A model generated the notes under the pieces. The model ran no database searches. It saw only the letters and a list, made by a program, of their open reading frames with translations, and had not been told where the DNA came from. This document shows positions 3,478 through 44,930 of a DNA stretch of 64,000 bases, piece by piece. The position numbers and the translations under genes are program-made. This DNA comes from Mesorhizobium sp. 131-2-1 (GTDB lineage Bacteria; Pseudomonadota; Alphaproteobacteria; Rhizobiales; Rhizobiaceae): assembly GCF_016756535.1 (NCBI RefSeq), contig NZ_AP023247.1:1612501-1676500 (forward strand), written 5' to 3'. Positions within the stretch are counted from its first letter, which is position 1. Each line of letters starts with the position of its first letter.

Positions 3478-3498
<21 letters not shown>

Positions 3499-3636
3499 AA
3501 TACAAAAAGGCCCGCCTCGCGCGGGCCTTTTTGTATTTGGTCGTGGTGGCCGGCGATCTTAACCCGCATAAGGGGCCCGCAAGGAGGCAAAGCCGACGCC
3601 GCGGGACAAAAACCAAATCCTGTCCCCGCAACCAAA
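3478..3636 (+). repeat. 23-bp direct repeat of the tRNA-Met 3' end
   Basis: The 23 bases at 3478-3500, covering the T-arm half, acceptor end and CCA of the initiator tRNA, recur without mismatch at 3614-3636. The second copy is followed by its own GC-rich hairpin and T-rich tail (about 3639-3680), so tRNA end plus terminator were copied together. Partial tRNA 3' ends are the usual footprint of tRNA-targeting integrases (att site), but no integrase is nearby. The rest of 3499-3810 holds only these terminators and the leader of the next gene. Confidence 0.75.
3498..3538 (+). terminator. Intrinsic terminator after tRNA-Met
   Basis: An 18-bp perfect stem (3498-3515 with 3521-3538) with a 5-nt loop has A-rich left and T-rich right flanks, a bidirectional intrinsic terminator. 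It ends the rRNA-tRNA operon. Confidence 0.85.
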
Positions 3637-3637
3637 C

Positions 3638-3682
3638 AAAAAACGGCCCGCCAGGCTCCTCGCCCGCGGGCCGTTTTCGTTT
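3638..3682 (+). terminator. Second intrinsic terminator-like hairpin
   Basis: AAAACGGCCCGC pairs with GCGGGCCGTTTT across a loop of about 14 nt, and the right side continues T-rich. It follows the duplicated tRNA end and mirrors the terminator at 3498-3538 in position and style, though the sequence differs. Confidence 0.6.
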
Positions 3683-38959: not shown

Positions 38960-39466
38960 TTAGCCGGCATCCCTGTTGGTCAGCGCGATGTGGCAGCAGC
39001 CGGAACCGTGGCCCGGCGTCCAGGTGACGTTGTCGAAGCGCACGCCGGTCGCCTCGAACAGGCCACGGTCGAAGGCGCCGGCGATGCGGCAGAGCGTGGC
39101 GAGCTTTTCCTCGCCGACGCCTGCCTCGACCCAGGCGTCCTTCAGCGGACAGCGCTTCACTCTGAAGGCGATGTGGGTCGCGTTGCGCTCGACATCGGTC
39201 GGGTACATGTGGCCGCCATCCGGGCTTACGGCCAGAAACGCCTCGCCGATCGCCCGCGCATCGTTGGGTCCGAAATCGGCGAAGGCCACCGCCGCCACTT
39301 CCCTGCCGCGCTGCTCGATGGTGCGGATCATCACCGCCTCGGCCCTCTCGGCGCCGAGCTCCGCGGTCAGTTCGTCGAGGAACAGACGGTAGAGATCGGC
39401 CCGGTTGCGGAAAGCGGAGTCGAGCTCGCGCGACAATTTTTCGGCTCTGGCCTCGGGGTCGGTCAT
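38960..39466 (-). CDS. L-2-amino-thiazoline-4-carboxylate hydrolase family protein
   Basis: This 168-residue protein resembles the ATC hydrolase family (AtcB-like), which opens the 2-aminothiazoline-4-carboxylate ring on the way to cysteine. Visible marks are VKRCPLKDAWVEAGV, LATLCRIAGAFDRG and a closing GHGSGCCHIAL segment, with conserved cysteines. It is the last gene of the dipeptide-type operon, overlapping the ATPase stop by 4 bp, so its substrate may be what the importer brings in. Family placement is by memory of motifs. Confidence 0.7.
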   Translation of the reverse strand: MTDPEARAEKLSRELDSAFRNRADLYRLFLDELTAELGAERAEAVMIRTIEQRGREVAAVAFADFGPNDARAIGEAFLAVSPDGGHMYPTDVERNATHIAFRVKRCPLKDAWVEAGVGEEKLATLCRIAGAFDRGLFEATGVRFDNVTWTPGHGSGCCHIALTNRDAG

Positions 39467-40248
39467 AGTGCTGGGTTCCTATCCAGTCTTGGCGTCGCTG
39501 CCACCAGCGCCTTGCCGATCGCCGATTGCGGTGCCGCAATGACGGCGCGGGCGTCGCCGGTCTCGGCGATCCGCCCGGCGTCGAGAATGGCGAGGCGATG
39601 GGCGATGGCGCGGACGACGCCGAGATCATGCGAAATGAACAGATAGGCGATCCGTTCCGTGGCTTGCAGGTCGAGCAGCAGGTCCAGGATCTGGCCGCGC
39701 ACCGAGACGTCGAGCGCCGAGACGGCTTCGTCCAGCACGATCAGCGAGGGATTGGTCGCAATAGCGCGCGCGATGGCGACGCGCTGGCGCTGGCCGCCGG
39801 AGATTTCATGGATGGCGCGCGGCGCAAGATCGGAAGCCAGGCCGACGCGTTCCAGCAGGGCGGCAATGCGGCGCGGGCGCTCAGTGCGCGAGGCGAGGTC
39901 ATGGATGCGCAACGGATCGTCGAGCACGCGCGCCACGGTGGCGCGCGGGTTGAAGGCAGCGAGCGGATCCTGGAACACCATTTGCAGCCGCGCGCGCTTT
40001 GCGCGCAGGGCCGCTCCGCCCAGCGAGCGGAAATCGCCGCCTTCGAACTGGATGGTGCCGGCGTCCGGCTCGATCAGCCTTAGCACCAGCCGCGCAATGG
40101 TCGATTTGCCGCTGCCGGACGGGCCGGCGAGCGCCAGCGTCTCGCCGGGCTCGATCGCGAAGGAAACGTCGTTGACGGCGGAGACCGCCTTGCCACCGCG
40201 GCGATAGCGCTTGGTCAGGCCGGAAACGGCCAGCAATGGCGTGCTCAT
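39463..40248 (-). CDS. ABC transporter ATPase, dipeptide/oligopeptide type (DppF-like)
   Basis: This is a 261-residue ATPase with Walker A GPSGSGKST, Q-loop MVFQDPLAAFNP, signature EISGGQRQRVAIARAI, Walker B IVLDEAVSALD and H-loop ISHDLGVV. It is the second ATPase of the system, overlapping the DppD-like gene by 4 bp. Unlike its partner it has no insertion. Confidence 0.93.
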   Translation of the reverse strand: MSTPLLAVSGLTKRYRRGGKAVSAVNDVSFAIEPGETLALAGPSGSGKSTIARLVLRLIEPDAGTIQFEGGDFRSLGGAALRAKRARLQMVFQDPLAAFNPRATVARVLDDPLRIHDLASRTERPRRIAALLERVGLASDLAPRAIHEISGGQRQRVAIARAIATNPSLIVLDEAVSALDVSVRGQILDLLLDLQATERIAYLFISHDLGVVRAIAHRLAILDAGRIAETGDARAVIAAPQSAIGKALVAATPRLDRNPAL

Positions 40249-41234
40249 GCCGGCGCTCCGGTGCGCCGCAGAGGCCCGGTGTCGAGGCCGAGATGGGCGT
40301 CGAGCAGTGCGCGCGTGTAGGCGTGGCGCGGGGCGTTGACGATCTCCGCCGTCGTGCCGAGCTCGAGCAACTTGCCATGGCGGAATACGGCAATGCGTTC
40401 AGCAAGCTCGGCGGCGAGCGCAATGTCGTGGCTGATGAACAGAAGCGTCATGCCGTCCTCGGCCACCAGCCGCCGGATGAGCGACACGATCTCGGCCTGC
40501 ACGATGGTGTCGAGTGCGCTGGTCGCCTCGTCGGCGATCAGCAGTCTTGGCCCGGCGGCAATTGCCGCGGCGATCGCCACGCGCTGCTTCTGGCCGCCGG
40601 AAAGCTGGTGCGGGTAGGCGCGCATGGCGGCGCCAGGGTCAGGCAAGCGGACGCGTTCGAGCAGGGTTCTGGCTTTGGCGTAGGCTCGAGGCCAGCCGAG
40701 GTTGAGATGCGTGTGGGCGACTTCGGCGATCTGCTTGCCGATCGGCATGACCGGGTCGAGGCTGGCGGAGGGATCCTGGAAGACGAAGCCGGTGTCGCGG
40801 CCGAGGAGGGGAACGAACTTAGGCTGGAGTTCCTTCACACCCCCCTCTGTCCTGCCGGACATCTCCCCCGCAAGGGGGGAGATTGAGCTGTCATCGCTGC
40901 TTTCGCCAATCTCCAACGTTGCAGGAGGAGAGCCAACGGCGAAGGTGCTGATCTCCCCCCTTGCGGGGGAGATGTCCGGCAGGACAGAGGGGGGTGCCTT
41001 GGCACCCGCGCTTGATGGCAAGAACCAATCGATCTGCCCCTCAATCCTGGCAGACCCCGGCAGCAACCCAGCGATCGCCAGCGCCAGCGTGCTCTTGCCA
41101 GAACCGCTTTCGCCGATGATGGCCAGGCGCTCACCGGCCTCGATCTCCAGGCCGACGCCCTGCAGCGCCGGCACCTCAACGCCATTGCCGCGGTAGGCGA
41201 CCGAAAGGTCGCGGATTGAAAGCAGCGCCGTCAC
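40245..41234 (-). CDS. ABC transporter ATPase, DppD-like, with in-frame palindromic insertion
   Basis: This 329-residue ATPase has Walker A GESGSGKST (about residues 41-49), Q-loop FVFQDPSASLDP (about 151), signature QLSGGQKQRVAIAAAI, Walker B LIADEATSALD and H-loop ISHDIALA. Between Walker A and the Q-loop, residues about 80-132 are encoded by a 159-bp palindromic repeat (40838-40996) and are proline/serine/glycine-rich. The frame stays open, so the protein could be made with an extra surface loop. The rest matches DppD. It overlaps its neighbours by 4 bp on both sides. Confidence 0.92.
   Translation of the reverse strand: MTALLSIRDLSVAYRGNGVEVPALQGVGLEIEAGERLAIIGESGSGKSTLALAIAGLLPGSARIEGQIDWFLPSSAGAKAPPSVLPDISPARGEISTFAVGSPPATLEIGESSDDSSISPLAGEMSGRTEGGVKELQPKFVPLLGRDTGFVFQDPSASLDPVMPIGKQIAEVAHTHLNLGWPRAYAKARTLLERVRLPDPGAAMRAYPHQLSGGQKQRVAIAAAIAAGPRLLIADEATSALDTIVQAEIVSLIRRLVAEDGMTLLFISHDIALAAELAERIAVFRHGKLLELGTTAEIVNAPRHAYTRALLDAHLGLDTGPLRRTGAPA
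40838..40996. repeat. Palindromic repeat element, copy 1, inside an ABC ATPase gene
   Basis: Perfect 32-bp terminal inverted repeats lie at 40838-40869 and 40965-40996. Each end also folds into a smaller hairpin with arms ATCTCCCCC and GGGGGAGAT. The whole is 159 bp, exactly 53 codons. It shares both the arms and much of the centre (around CATCGCTG and CGCCAATCTCCAACG) with the copy at 43095-43254, so it is a mobile or dispersed repeat family and not part of the ancestral gene. Confidence 0.93.
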
Positions 41235-42061
41235 GACAGGCTTCTCCGCACCGCAGTCGTTTCGACGACGCCTTCGCCGGCGAGGTAGACACCGAGCACG
41301 GTCAGCACCAGGGCGATGCCGGGAATGATCGACAGGGAAGGCGCGGTGCGCAGCACGGCGCGGCCTTCCGCGATCATGCCGCCCCAGGTGACGCGGTTGG
41401 GGTCGCCTAGCCCGAGAAAGGAAAGTGCTGCCTCGGTGAGGATCGCCGCCGCGACGATCACCGACGACAGCGCCAGCACCGGCGGCAGCGTGTTGGGCAG
41501 CACTTCGCGAAAGGCGATCTCGAGCGGATGCATGCCGATGACGCGGGCGCCGGCGACATAGTCGCGCTCGCGGATCGACAGCACCTCGGCGCGCGCGACG
41601 CGCGCCGGTCCGGTCCAGGCACCGAGCGCGATGGCCGCGACGACGACGCCGAGCGACGGGCCGACAATGCTGACGAAGGCGAGTGCCAGCAGGAAGCCGG
41701 GCACCGTCTGGAAGGCGTCGGTGACGCGCATCAGCACCTCATCGGCGAGGCCGCCGGCAAAGCCGGCCAGCGTTCCGATCACCACGCCGATGATAAGGGC
41801 GGCAGCGGACGCCGCCAGACCGACGGCCAGCGAGGTGCGGGCTCCATGAAAGAGCTCGGCAAGCACGTCACGGCCGAGCCGGTCGGTGCCGAACGGCAGC
41901 GACCAGTCCTGGAAGGGCGGCAGCAGAGCCGGACCTGCGATTGCCTGCGGGTCGCCGGGAAAGATCAGCGAAGCGGATAGCGCCATGGCGAACAGCACCG
42001 CCAGGATGATTGCGCCGGCGACTGCCTCCGGCGTGCGCAGCAAACGGCGAAGCCCGTTCAC
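41231..42061 (-). CDS. ABC transporter permease, DppC-like
   Basis: This is a 276-residue permease with about six membrane segments; FGTDRLGRDVLAEL near residue 58 and the EAA loop GMHPLEIAFREVLPNTLPPVL are DppC marks. GTG 42061 overlaps the DppB-like stop as GTGA, and its own stop overlaps the DppD-like start by 4 bp. Confidence 0.93.
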   Translation of the reverse strand: MNGLRRLLRTPEAVAGAIILAVLFAMALSASLIFPGDPQAIAGPALLPPFQDWSLPFGTDRLGRDVLAELFHGARTSLAVGLAASAAALIIGVVIGTLAGFAGGLADEVLMRVTDAFQTVPGFLLALAFVSIVGPSLGVVVAAIALGAWTGPARVARAEVLSIRERDYVAGARVIGMHPLEIAFREVLPNTLPPVLALSSVIVAAAILTEAALSFLGLGDPNRVTWGGMIAEGRAVLRTAPSLSIIPGIALVLTVLGVYLAGEGVVETTAVRRSLS

Positions 42062-43044
42062 GCTCCGGCCTCGCTGGCGCCGACGCGCGGATCGAGCACG
42101 GCATAGGCGAGGTCGACCAGCAGGTTGATCAGGATGACGAGCACGGCGCTGGTGAGAATGATGCCGAGAAGCAGCGGCGTGTCGCGTCCCGCGACAGCTT
42201 CCTGCGCCAGCCGGCCGAGGCCGGGCACGGCAAAGACGCTTTCGATGACGACGCTGCCGCCCAGCATCTGCGCCGACTGCAGCCCGAGCATGGTGACCAA
42301 GGGCAAGAGCGCGTTGCGGGCGACATGGGCGAGCACGATACGGCGGCGCGACAGGCCCCTGGCGCGGGCTGCGAGGACGAAGTCCTGCCGCCAGGCCTCG
42401 GCCATGCCGGCGCGCATCATGCGCAGATAGAGCGCGAGATAGATGAAGCCGAGTGCCGACACCGGCAGCACGAGGTGGGTGGCGATGTCGGCGGCGCGGT
42501 CGAGGCCGGTCTTGCCTGAGGCGATGGTCTCGATGCCGCCGATCGGCAGCCAGCGCAGGTCGACGGCGAAGACAACGATCAGCACCAGGCCGAGCCAGAA
42601 GCCGGGCACGGCATAGAGCGCCAGCGAGCCGATCGACAGGAAGCGGTCGCGAAGGCTGCCTGGTCGCGCGCCTGCATAGATGCCGAGCGCCGAGCCGAGG
42701 CCGAAGGACAGCGCGGTGGCGCTGCCCATCAGGATGAGCGTGGTGGGCAAGCGTTCGAGGACGACGTCGCGGATCGGGCGCGAGAAGGTGACGGACTGGC
42801 CGAGGTCGAGATGGCAGAGCGCCCAGAGATAGTTGGCGAGCCGCGTCAGTTCCGACTGGTCGAGACCCCAGCGATGGCGCAGCACCTCGATCAGGCCGGC
42901 ATCGCCGCCGGTCGAGACGATGTAGGCATCGACCGCGTCGCCGGGGGCCGCCTCGAGCAGAAGGAAGGTGCCGATGACGACGATCAGGAGCACGAAGACG
43001 CTGCCGACGAGACGGCGGCGGATGAGGGCGAGGGCGCGGTTCAT
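42058..43044 (-). CDS. ABC transporter permease, DppB-like
   Basis: This is a 328-residue permease with an N-terminal membrane segment, a periplasmic region containing WGLDQSELTRL and five further segments. The EAA-like loop is ARARGLSRRRIVLAHVARNAL. It partners the DppC-like permease. Upstream, 275 bp with a palindromic repeat separates it from the binding-protein gene. Confidence 0.93.
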   Translation of the reverse strand: MNRALALIRRRLVGSVFVLLIVVIGTFLLLEAAPGDAVDAYIVSTGGDAGLIEVLRHRWGLDQSELTRLANYLWALCHLDLGQSVTFSRPIRDVVLERLPTTLILMGSATALSFGLGSALGIYAGARPGSLRDRFLSIGSLALYAVPGFWLGLVLIVVFAVDLRWLPIGGIETIASGKTGLDRAADIATHLVLPVSALGFIYLALYLRMMRAGMAEAWRQDFVLAARARGLSRRRIVLAHVARNALLPLVTMLGLQSAQMLGGSVVIESVFAVPGLGRLAQEAVAGRDTPLLLGIILTSAVLVILINLLVDLAYAVLDPRVGASEAGA

Positions 43045-43094: not shown

Positions 43095-43254
43095 GCGCCC
43101 CCCTCTGTCCTGCCGGACATCTCCCCCACTTCGGGGGAGATCGGTTGTCATCGCTGCCTTCGCCAATCTCCAACGTCGCAGGATTGAGTTAGGCGCGGGA
43201 CCTGCTGATCTCCCCCCTCGTGGGGGAGATGTCCGGCAGGACAGAGGGGGGCGC
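43095..43254. repeat. Palindromic repeat element, copy 2, intergenic
   Basis: Perfect 33-bp inverted repeats lie at 43095-43127 and 43222-43254, total 160 bp. It has the same arms and similar centre as copy 1 within the DppD-like gene. It lies between the binding-protein gene and the DppB-like gene, where its hairpins could end or protect the transcript and so lower permease expression relative to the binding protein. The remaining parts of 43045-43319 hold nothing else. Confidence 0.93.
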
Positions 43255-43319: not shown

Positions 43320-44930
43320 TCAGCCGGCCAAATAGGTGTCCGCCCAGTTCGAGACTGCCCAGCGCGGGTTGTTGGCGATATTCCCCACCGTTTCGCGGGC
43401 GACGCTGATAAAACTCCATTCGGCGACGTTGATCAGCGGCAGGTCGGCCGCCACCTTCTTCTGGAATTCCTTGTAGAGGTCGGTGCGCGCCGATGTGTCG
43501 AGCGTCTCGGAGGCCTTGGCGATGAGCGCGTCGAGATCCGCGTTCTTGTAGCCGCCCTGGTTGGAGAAGGGCACGCCGTCGGGAATGCCGCTCTGCACCA
43601 GGATGGTGGTCGAGATCGCCGGGTCGCCGCGGAACACCGGCGGGCCGACGGCGAGGTCGAAGGCATGGTCGGTGTAGACCGCCTTGATGTGGGCTGGAGA
43701 ATCGTTGTTGACCAGTTCGGCGTCGATGCCGATTGCGGCCAGCGCCTGGCGCAGATAATCGCCGAACTGCTTGGTCTCGTTGAAGTAGGGCGCCGGCAAA
43801 AGTTTCAGCGAGAAGCGCTTGCCGTCGGGGCCCTTCTTGTAGCCGGCCTCGTCGAGAAGCGCATTGGCCTTGGCGACGTCGAAGGCATAGGTCGGCACGT
43901 CGGCGGTGTAGAATTGCGGATCGTTCTTCGGCACCGGGCCGGTCGCGGTCGCGGCGTAGCCGAGGAAGATCGTCTTGACGACGAAGTCCTTGTCGATGGC
44001 ATGGGCGATCGCCTGCCGGACCTTGATGTCGGCTAGCTCCTTGCGGCGATGGTTGATCTCGACGACGAGCTGGTAGGTCAGCCCCTCATAGCCCTTGGTG
44101 ATCACCTTCAGGCCCGCCACCTTGGAGATGCGGTCGAGATCGGCGAGCGGCACGGCGGAGAAGGCGGCGAGCTGGATCTCCTCCGCTTCGAGCGCGGCCG
44201 CGGCCGAGCCACGGTCCGGCAGCACCTGGTAGACGATCTCGTCGAGATAGGGCTCGTCCTTCCCCCAATAGTCGGCGTTCTTAGCCAGCCGGTAATACTG
44301 GCCGGCCTTGTATTCGGCGAATTTGAACGGGCCGGTGCCGACCGGCGCGTTGTTGGCCGGGTTCTCCTCGATCTTGCCGTTCTCGTAGACGTGCTTCGGC
44401 ACCACGCTGCTCAGTGCGGGCAAGGCGTTGCGGATCAGCTGGAACGGCGTCGGCTTGGCGAATTTGAAGACGGCGGTCAGTTCGTCCGGCGTTTCGACGG
44501 CTGCCAGGTCCTTGAACACGGTGCGGCCGAGATTCTGCAGCGGCTTCCACACCTGCAGCGCCGAGAAGGCGACGTCGGCGGAGGTGAAGGGCTTGCCGTC
44601 ATGCCACTTGACGCCATCGCGCAATTTGAACGTCACCGACAGGCCGTCGGCGGCGCCTTCCCAGGAGAGTGCGAGGCGCGGCTGGAGTCCGTCCTTGCCG
44701 TCGAAGGAGGCCTCGGCCAGCGTCTCCACGACCTTGCTGGAGATAAAGAAGACGCCGTTGGAAGCGACGATCGCCGGGTTGAGGTTGCGCGGCTCGGAAT
44801 CGGCGGCGACGACCAGCCGGCCGCCCTTCTTTGGCGTCTGCGCGCGACCGATCGCCGGCATGGCGGTGGAGGCGAGCAGCGCCGCCGAACCGGCAAGCAC
44901 GCTGCGCCTGGAGATGGTGAAAGCTGACAT
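43320..44930 (-). CDS. ABC substrate-binding protein, family 5 (dipeptide/oligopeptide type)
   Basis: This is a 536-residue binding protein of the DppA/OppA family. A Tat signal (ISRRSVLAGSAALL) precedes cleavage near GRAQTP. Family marks are GGRLVVAADSEPRNLNPA, LRDGVKWHDGKPFTSADV and GTGPFKF. ATG 44930 has GGAGGTCGATC upstream. Such proteins bind peptides, but also many other compounds; the ATC hydrolase at the operon end hints at a thiazoline or cysteine-like ligand. Confidence 0.93.
   Translation of the reverse strand: MSAFTISRRSVLAGSAALLASTAMPAIGRAQTPKKGGRLVVAADSEPRNLNPAIVASNGVFFISSKVVETLAEASFDGKDGLQPRLALSWEGAADGLSVTFKLRDGVKWHDGKPFTSADVAFSALQVWKPLQNLGRTVFKDLAAVETPDELTAVFKFAKPTPFQLIRNALPALSSVVPKHVYENGKIEENPANNAPVGTGPFKFAEYKAGQYYRLAKNADYWGKDEPYLDEIVYQVLPDRGSAAAALEAEEIQLAAFSAVPLADLDRISKVAGLKVITKGYEGLTYQLVVEINHRRKELADIKVRQAIAHAIDKDFVVKTIFLGYAATATGPVPKNDPQFYTADVPTYAFDVAKANALLDEAGYKKGPDGKRFSLKLLPAPYFNETKQFGDYLRQALAAIGIDAELVNNDSPAHIKAVYTDHAFDLAVGPPVFRGDPAISTTILVQSGIPDGVPFSNQGGYKNADLDALIAKASETLDTSARTDLYKEFQKKVAADLPLINVAEWSFISVARETVGNIANNPRWAVSNWADTYLAG

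Follow-up and report, generated by a model that had tools for sequence, protein, structure and literature searches.

How does a gene for an ABC transporter ATPase come to hold a long palindrome inside its reading frame, and what has kept it there? The question is raised by a DppD-type gene of Mesorhizobium sp. 131-2-1 that lies in the window analysed here (the whole 64,000-nt stretch of contig NZ_AP023247.1). The gene product matches PF00005 (5.3e-25) and, under its gathering score, oligo_HPY (1.4e-4) in Pfam. Its protein matches are DppD chains (best E 2.1e-90), and a Foldseek search with the predicted model placed E. coli DppD (8z1w_C, E 2.5e-25) first among solved structures. Its neighbours, named from Pfam and from resemblance, encode a binding protein (the gene ends at 43320 on the minus strand), permeases and a DppF-type ATPase. 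The coordinates of all features are given in the table.

The element lies between the Walker A motif and the Q-loop of DppD and, as the first-pass annotation had stated, leaves the frame of the gene uninterrupted. The same annotation described perfect inverted ends of 32 bp; the arms measure 46 nt instead. Each arm is made of two small hairpins, which in the left arm read TGTCC-tgcc-GGACA and ATCTCCCCC-gcaa-GGGGGGAGAT. The reported length of 53 codons is right for the 159-bp palindrome but not for the whole extra sequence: Walker A and Q-loop are 101 residues apart here and 36 in most empty orthologues, a difference of 195 bp, so that about 36 bp outside the perfect palindrome seem to be part of the insert. 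The linkers of filled and empty orthologues are highly variable and do not fix the insertion point or define a target-site duplication. Folded as RNA, the element reaches -135.5 kcal/mol (z -12.8 against shuffles). In the AlphaFold model the insert has a pLDDT of about 32 and the rest is a confident ABC fold; the insert is thus predicted to be disordered.

Within the window, the 23-nt arm core has four matches at up to 3 mismatches, and none of 100 shuffles had any. The nearby intergenic second copy that had been reported was found, between the binding-protein and first permease genes. Six relatives (G008, G011, G017, G029, G034 and G047) likewise have an element no more than about 3 kb from dppD, and this intercistronic copy may therefore be conserved. 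Rfam gave no match at the element; its sole hit, elsewhere, scored 21 bits where the gathering score is 40 and was taken as chance. Separately, at 3478–3652 of the window, a direct repeat with 39-nt units (92% alike at a distance of 136 nt), unrelated to the dppD insert, overlaps an 85% complementary inverted repeat at 3483–3553.

Table 1. Positions of the dppD element, its host gene and related insertions (window coordinates, or locus:range for other sequences).
Feature	Position	Strand	Basis or remark
DppD-type dipeptide/oligopeptide ABC transporter ATPase gene, carries the insert	40245..41234	-	ORF, 329 aa, open throughout
Walker A GESGSGKST, precedes the insert in the protein	41088..41114	-	translation; invariant in orthologue alignment
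Q-loop FQDP, follows the insert in the protein	40770..40781	-	translation; orthologue alignment
Palindromic element, 159 bp = 53 codons, in dppD frame	40838..40996	.	sequence, inverted-repeat search
Left arm, 46 nt, 100% complementary to right arm	40838..40883	.	inverted-repeat search
Loop, 67 nt, directional, orientation A relative to the gene; + strand has GCTTTCGCCAATC	40884..40950	.	
Right arm, 46 nt	40951..40996	.	inverted-repeat search
Stretch with pLDDT <50, residues 74-138, approximately the extra sequence relative to the empty site	40821..41015	-	AlphaFold
Second ABC ATPase gene, DppF-type, without insert	39463..40248	-	PF00005 3e-33
Permease gene, BPD_transp_1, adjoins second element copy	42058..43044	-	Pfam
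Second element copy, between binding-protein and first permease genes	~43095..43254	.	arms 48 nt, 94% complementary
Family B in frame at CobN linkers, other species	L211:2908-3045, L226:1363-1509, L315:2962-3135		
Palindrome, 62-nt arms (57 paired), in frame at CobN site 2, another genus	L311:2905-3144		
Frame-disrupting copies, G031	L339:870-1012, L339:3684-3827, L250:2859-3004		cobG, cobN, nitrate reductase
Frame-disrupting copy, dppD, G011	L086:1357-1500		minus-strand count

We searched 99 genomes of the genus Mesorhizobium and took 90 orthologous dppD loci, leaving out nine genomes with weaker, paralogue-like or partial matches. Five loci were not read whole: L079 and L105 meet contig ends, L084 and L101 have N in or beside the element, and L086 is frame-broken. 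Among the 85 others, 48 carry the element in frame, 16 hold in-frame remnants and 21 are empty. This coexistence of filled, remnant and empty sites among orthologues identifies the dppD element as an insertion. The first-pass annotation had argued for insertion over gene evolution and suggested aligning DppD across Mesorhizobium to find the empty site; the 21 empty orthologues of 85 bear out the argument, and since empty sites exist, homologues do not all carry an unrelated loop of the same length. Nor are intragenic copies confined to broken genes, as the 48 filled dppD genes are open and L086 is broken. On a tree of the flanking sequence, L114–L120 fall outside the rest and are all empty, as is L113 near the base; with the outermost rows empty, the empty state is probably ancestral. 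On this tree, sites must have switched between filled and not filled at least 20 times. Losses often leave remnants, such as APPSVLP-EMSGRTEGG in both dppD and cobG, and these are consistent with deletions at the hairpin base.

The element is not restricted to dppD. In its own genome it also stands in frame in CobG (PF03460, PF01077), CobN (PF02514) and a molybdopterin nitrate reductase (PF00384, PF01568, PF04324), the last of which uses another frame of the element; in all three, Pfam domains flank or surround it. This survey considered full copies and covered 21 long frames over own-genome copies, of which ten plus dppD were scanned with Pfam, and further genic copies may exist. No Pfam domain was found in the frames of L020, L019, L028 (two), L029 and L006. 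The VWA_CoxE domain of L138 lies far downstream of the element, and this frame was not counted; in G016, only L306 of seven scanned frames had a domain (M24 peptidase), again far downstream. The acetolactate-synthase-like protein P0098, with the element at its N-terminus only, possibly through a miscalled start, was likewise not counted. Across genomes, the alignment spanned the insert for CobG in 41 of the 60 genomes that matched (G042 aside), for CobN at site 2 in 32 of 61 (two of these with another repeat) and for the nitrate reductase in 16 of 53. Rows that align only in two halves exist for cobG, cobN and nasA, and several that were viewed are remnants or empty. A protein-database query with the insert only returned 534 proteins, and ABC ATPases and precorrin-3B synthases of Mesorhizobium make up most of the 120 matches listed; NCBI names such insert-bearing proteins ABC transporter ATP-binding proteins. 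One database protein, the pyruvate dehydrogenase E2 P0048, has two in-frame copies, and a query with the CobN insert returned 29 proteins, all with a CobN domain. The search for in-frame intragenic copies elsewhere, proposed at first pass, thus places the element in several unrelated conserved genes: DppD, CobG, CobN, nitrate reductase and pyruvate dehydrogenase E2.

We then counted frames at dppD without requiring an open one (86 evaluable loci; L056 and L099 fell outside the motif patterns). Both arms were found between Walker A and the Q-loop in 47 loci, and 45 of these elements keep the frame and contain no stop; the other two are L084, with N at an assembly join, and L086 of G011, whose frame breaks past the right arm. 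The dppD elements mostly belong to a 143-nt length class, and a 143-nt core with similar boundaries is present in 43 of the 45 filled sites. Among 57 copies outside recognised genes (28 from the own genome, 29 from G016), most measure 142 nt, six have the dppD length class, and the dppD frame would accommodate 6 of 114 copy-by-orientation combinations. All 43 of the 143-nt dppD cores, whose genes were selected as open, are open in the gene frame, and the other two frames are open in 23 and 15 of the 43; the gene frame is open in 64 of the 114 combinations outside recognised genes. The length class is also uniform in cobG (29 of 29) and at cobN site 2 (28 of 28), which is partly circular because these genes were picked for an uninterrupted frame. 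In nasA, one of 17 elements has a different left frame (probably L250). For two-half rows of cobG, cobN and nasA on one contig, the open-frame length is equal for both halves except in G031 (cobN and nasA) and G040, whose cobN breaks at about residue 780, at a distance from the element. Frames are broken at or beside the element in cobG, cobN and nasA of G031 and in dppD of G011, for which one-base homopolymer assembly errors at C/G runs are a possible cause.

Outside these genes, the element belongs to a dispersed family. The arm core has 83 matches in the 7.1-Mb own genome (up to 2 mismatches; reversed control 0), corresponding to about 50 places, from which 32 complete copies were recovered. 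Arm hairpins fall into subtypes with paired changes (TGTCC/GGACA, TGGCC/GGCCA and TGCCC/GGGCA). The 159-bp query matched 60 of 61 genomes of the genus, and relatives occur on 160 plasmid records, mostly of Sinorhizobium (66) and Rhizobium (54) but also of Shinella; the Sinorhizobium relatives are about 70–74% identical. Among the 60 plasmid records listed, seven of them without annotation, none has an annotated feature under its best match, so the usual home of the repeat looks intergenic. With its inverted repeats, multiple copies and a length too short for a transposase, the element shows these traits of a MITE. The ends of own-genome copies L001–L030 vary modularly (GTTCCTTCGC, GGGACAGC, CCAAGGCA and similar, beside the C/G runs of the arms), resembling mosaic elements. 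At several own-genome places the arms stand inside out, about 120–150 nt apart (for example G000:C1:1804629-1804779, 4415884-4416030 and 4662265-4662409).

Between the arms, the loop is directional, and both of its orientations are found at the same site. The 48 filled dppD loci comprise 32 with orientation A and 16 with orientation B (L062, L071 and L074, with tied scores, were assigned by peptide, and L081, L117 and L118 by eye; L072, without a full loop, was excluded from loop comparisons). Where both arms were recognised, the two orientations stood at 29:16 in dppD, 15:14 in cobG and 12:16 at cobN site 2, and the 16 B rows of dppD require at least 15 orientation changes on the tree. Filled dppD pairs that differ by less than 0.15 at 4-fold sites, which come from few clusters and are not independent, have the same orientation in 8 and opposite orientations in 6 of 14 cases, with loop identities of 0.64–0.81 and one of 0.97. 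Conversely, L035/L046 and L059/L064 are 0.29–0.30 apart at 4-fold sites and their loops are 0.99 identical. Loop identity is therefore decoupled from flank divergence, which rejects purely vertical evolution of the loop. Loop identity is 0.70–0.71 at the same site in different genomes, 0.696 between different sites and 0.690 between genic and other copies; because about 0.70 is the family background, identities of distant pairs say little. Donors for swapped loops within genomes were mostly not found: different sites within one genome show a small excess (0.711 versus 0.696, reached by 11 of 1,000 permutations), and one cobG/cobN pair in G027, at 0.94, is perhaps a donor case. The two orientations, and a turnover independent of the flanking gene, suggest that replacement or inversion affects the whole loop at once.

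CobN offers a view of other palindromes, as two of its linkers (sites 1 and 2) take such elements. The 30 best-scoring loci each were taken for cobG, cobN and nasA, a choice that skews these samples to filled sites. At CobN site 2, 28 of the 30 loci hold the dppD-element family and two (L210, L211) a distinct palindromic family, B; at site 1 there are 8 of the dppD-element family, 9 of family B, 2 remnants of the dppD element and 11 with neither, some of which may be family B remnants. Family B encodes peptides like SPSPLWGGS...PPHKGEG and VPLPLEGRVRPQAGGGV...PPLEGEG and the own genome yields no more than six matches to it, all weak. CobN matched in 36 of 121 genomes from other genera of the same bacterial family, giving 28 new loci with the pattern resolved in 16, and more palindromes were found at the same sites (L311, L313, L314, L315). 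Seven CobN-linker inserts gave inverted-repeat scores of 14.5–49.5 against shuffle maxima of 9.5–11.5 (15 shuffles each). Three of the seven are repeated in the genomes searched; family B is sparse in G057 and frequent in G177. The L311 palindrome has 82 matches in its genome, G162 (40 of 129 candidates scored), and 151, mostly partial, in the own genome. Several linker palindromes share a CCTCATCC...CTTCTCCC layout.

Finally, we compared substitution patterns in host and insert. The ratio of codon position 1+2 to 4-fold differences in the host domain is 0.28 for filled genes and 0.20 for empty ones, values that show purifying selection on the DppD host domain in both; the slightly higher ratio of filled genes may mean that the insert carries a mild cost, or that genes under less constraint tolerate it. 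All 48 filled genes have Walker A and the LSGGQ signature, 46 have Walker B (strict pattern) and 39 have ISHD. Within the insert, mean differences at codon positions 1, 2 and 3 are 0.072, 0.042 and 0.038 in the left arm, 0.332, 0.229 and 0.318 in loop A and 0.224, 0.302 and 0.298 in loop B. Neither arm nor loops of filled dppD show a third-position excess, and the arm peptide is without conservation at the protein level.

Together, these data make it probable that tolerated selfish palindromes, filtered for frame, occupy disordered linkers and that the dppD copy comes from the dispersed family. A dispersed palindromic repeat would have inserted into the dppD-type gene early in the genus and been retained where its length and frame suited the gene and its peptide fell in a linker that tolerates a disordered loop, with selection acting on frame and the absence of stops only. 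We infer that the insert is translated in DppD. It is highly improbable, by contrast, that dppD has been inactivated by the insertion and is now decaying as a pseudogene; the broken frames in dppD of G011 and in three other genes of G031 would fit, but the 48 filled genes are open with their ATPase motifs, their host domain is under purifying selection and NCBI lists such proteins as ATP-binding proteins of ABC transporters. The extreme mRNA hairpin lends something to the idea that the mature protein lacks the insert, with RNase III cutting the 46-bp RNA hairpin or the ribosome bypassing it, and RNase III handles hairpins in alphaproteobacterial rRNA. Yet removal would need neither an open frame nor a fitting length, and 45 of 47 dppD loci keep both, against the 6 of 114 combinations that set the expectation, which makes this reading very unlikely. 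Hardly more credit goes to domestication of the loop, in which selection would maintain it for a role in the protein, for instance as a surface through which the transporter is regulated or interacts with partners. Its persistence in 48 of 85 orthologues and the recurrence of other palindromic families at the same CobN linkers would agree with a function, whereas the 16 remnants, the repeated filled/not-filled changes, the lack of a third-position excess in arms and loops, the two loop orientations and the predicted disorder argue against it.

Within the reading as tolerated selfish palindromes, the loop differences have two candidate origins. The loop could be replaced by recombination through the palindromic arms, which may pair either way, or by repeated insertion; exchange through the arms is the mechanism we prefer. 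Its rival, in which the element is lost and a new one inserts at that site again and again, retains a substantial though lesser probability: distinct palindromic families at CobN linkers in different species imply that fresh insertion at one linker happens, and clean empty dppD sites exist. On the other hand, the losses observed in dppD and cobG often leave remnants, and similar boundaries with a 143-nt core in 43 of 45 sites are more readily maintained through exchange inside the arms. A broader proposal, to which we give somewhat less than an even chance, is that such linkers are landing pads for several palindrome families, whose arms would allow the loop to be exchanged or inverted with dispersed copies; selection for an open frame would filter the products and thereby supply new disordered segments, in either orientation, at fixed positions of metabolic enzymes.

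In-frame palindromes have precedents. Rickettsia palindromic elements (RPE), as portrayed in the relevant parts of PMC2229807 and PMC10969869 (section 13), measure 105–146 bp, occur in many copies in and between genes, and stand in frame in unrelated conserved proteins that tolerate the insert; a title in the reference list of the former points to such elements in Wolbachia. Less striking in-frame fusions are recorded for ERIC, the 107-bp Correia element and the Coxiella QMITE (sections of PMC2229807, PMC5896051 and PMC10969869), and in-frame palindromes or hairpin repeats are discussed in a part of PMC3733652. The dppD element shares with RPE and the Wolbachia elements a multi-copy palindrome of about 100–160 bp, an in-frame position and orthologues without it, and works like RPE, a likeness of function drawn from descriptions and not of sequence. 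It differs from RPE in that the host is a rhizobial genus with genomes mostly of 6–8 Mb, a single site can hold the loop in either orientation, distinct families share protein linkers, and genic copies have a length class unlike most other copies. Like RIME and the S. meliloti palindromes, it is a dispersed rhizobial repeat with dozens of copies; by the account in parts of PMC2573895, rhizobial palindromes, RIME included, are intergenic, whereas the dppD element is also genic, a comparison of descriptions in which the Sinorhizobium plasmid relatives are only a lead toward RIME. With MITEs (ERIC, QMITE, Correia) it shares shortness, inverted ends and, at times, in-frame fusions, but its arms are longer than those in the table of PMC2229807; with GTAG- and CGTC-tagged REP elements, as covered in part of PMC3733652, it shares hairpin modules and abundance.

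The first-pass annotation had called a protein-making rhizobial repeat undescribed beyond a Rickettsia precedent. Among the papers listed by a full-text literature search, from which subscription journals were mostly absent, no report of in-frame palindromic elements in rhizobial proteins was found; the kind is known beyond Rickettsia, in Wolbachia, ERIC, Correia and QMITE, and the phenomenon is less novel in kind than was implied. For comparison, section 13 of the 2024 review PMC10969869 treats similar protein shaping in other prokaryotes as only conceivable.

In-frame palindromes, best known from Rickettsia, thus occur widely in a genus of culturable rhizobia, nitrogen-fixing soil bacteria, where at least five protein families carry them, and empty sites, remnants and frame-filtered copies coexist in Mesorhizobium. 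With these states side by side in organisms that can be cultured, how selfish repeats add protein sequence becomes a question testable by genetics and proteomics.
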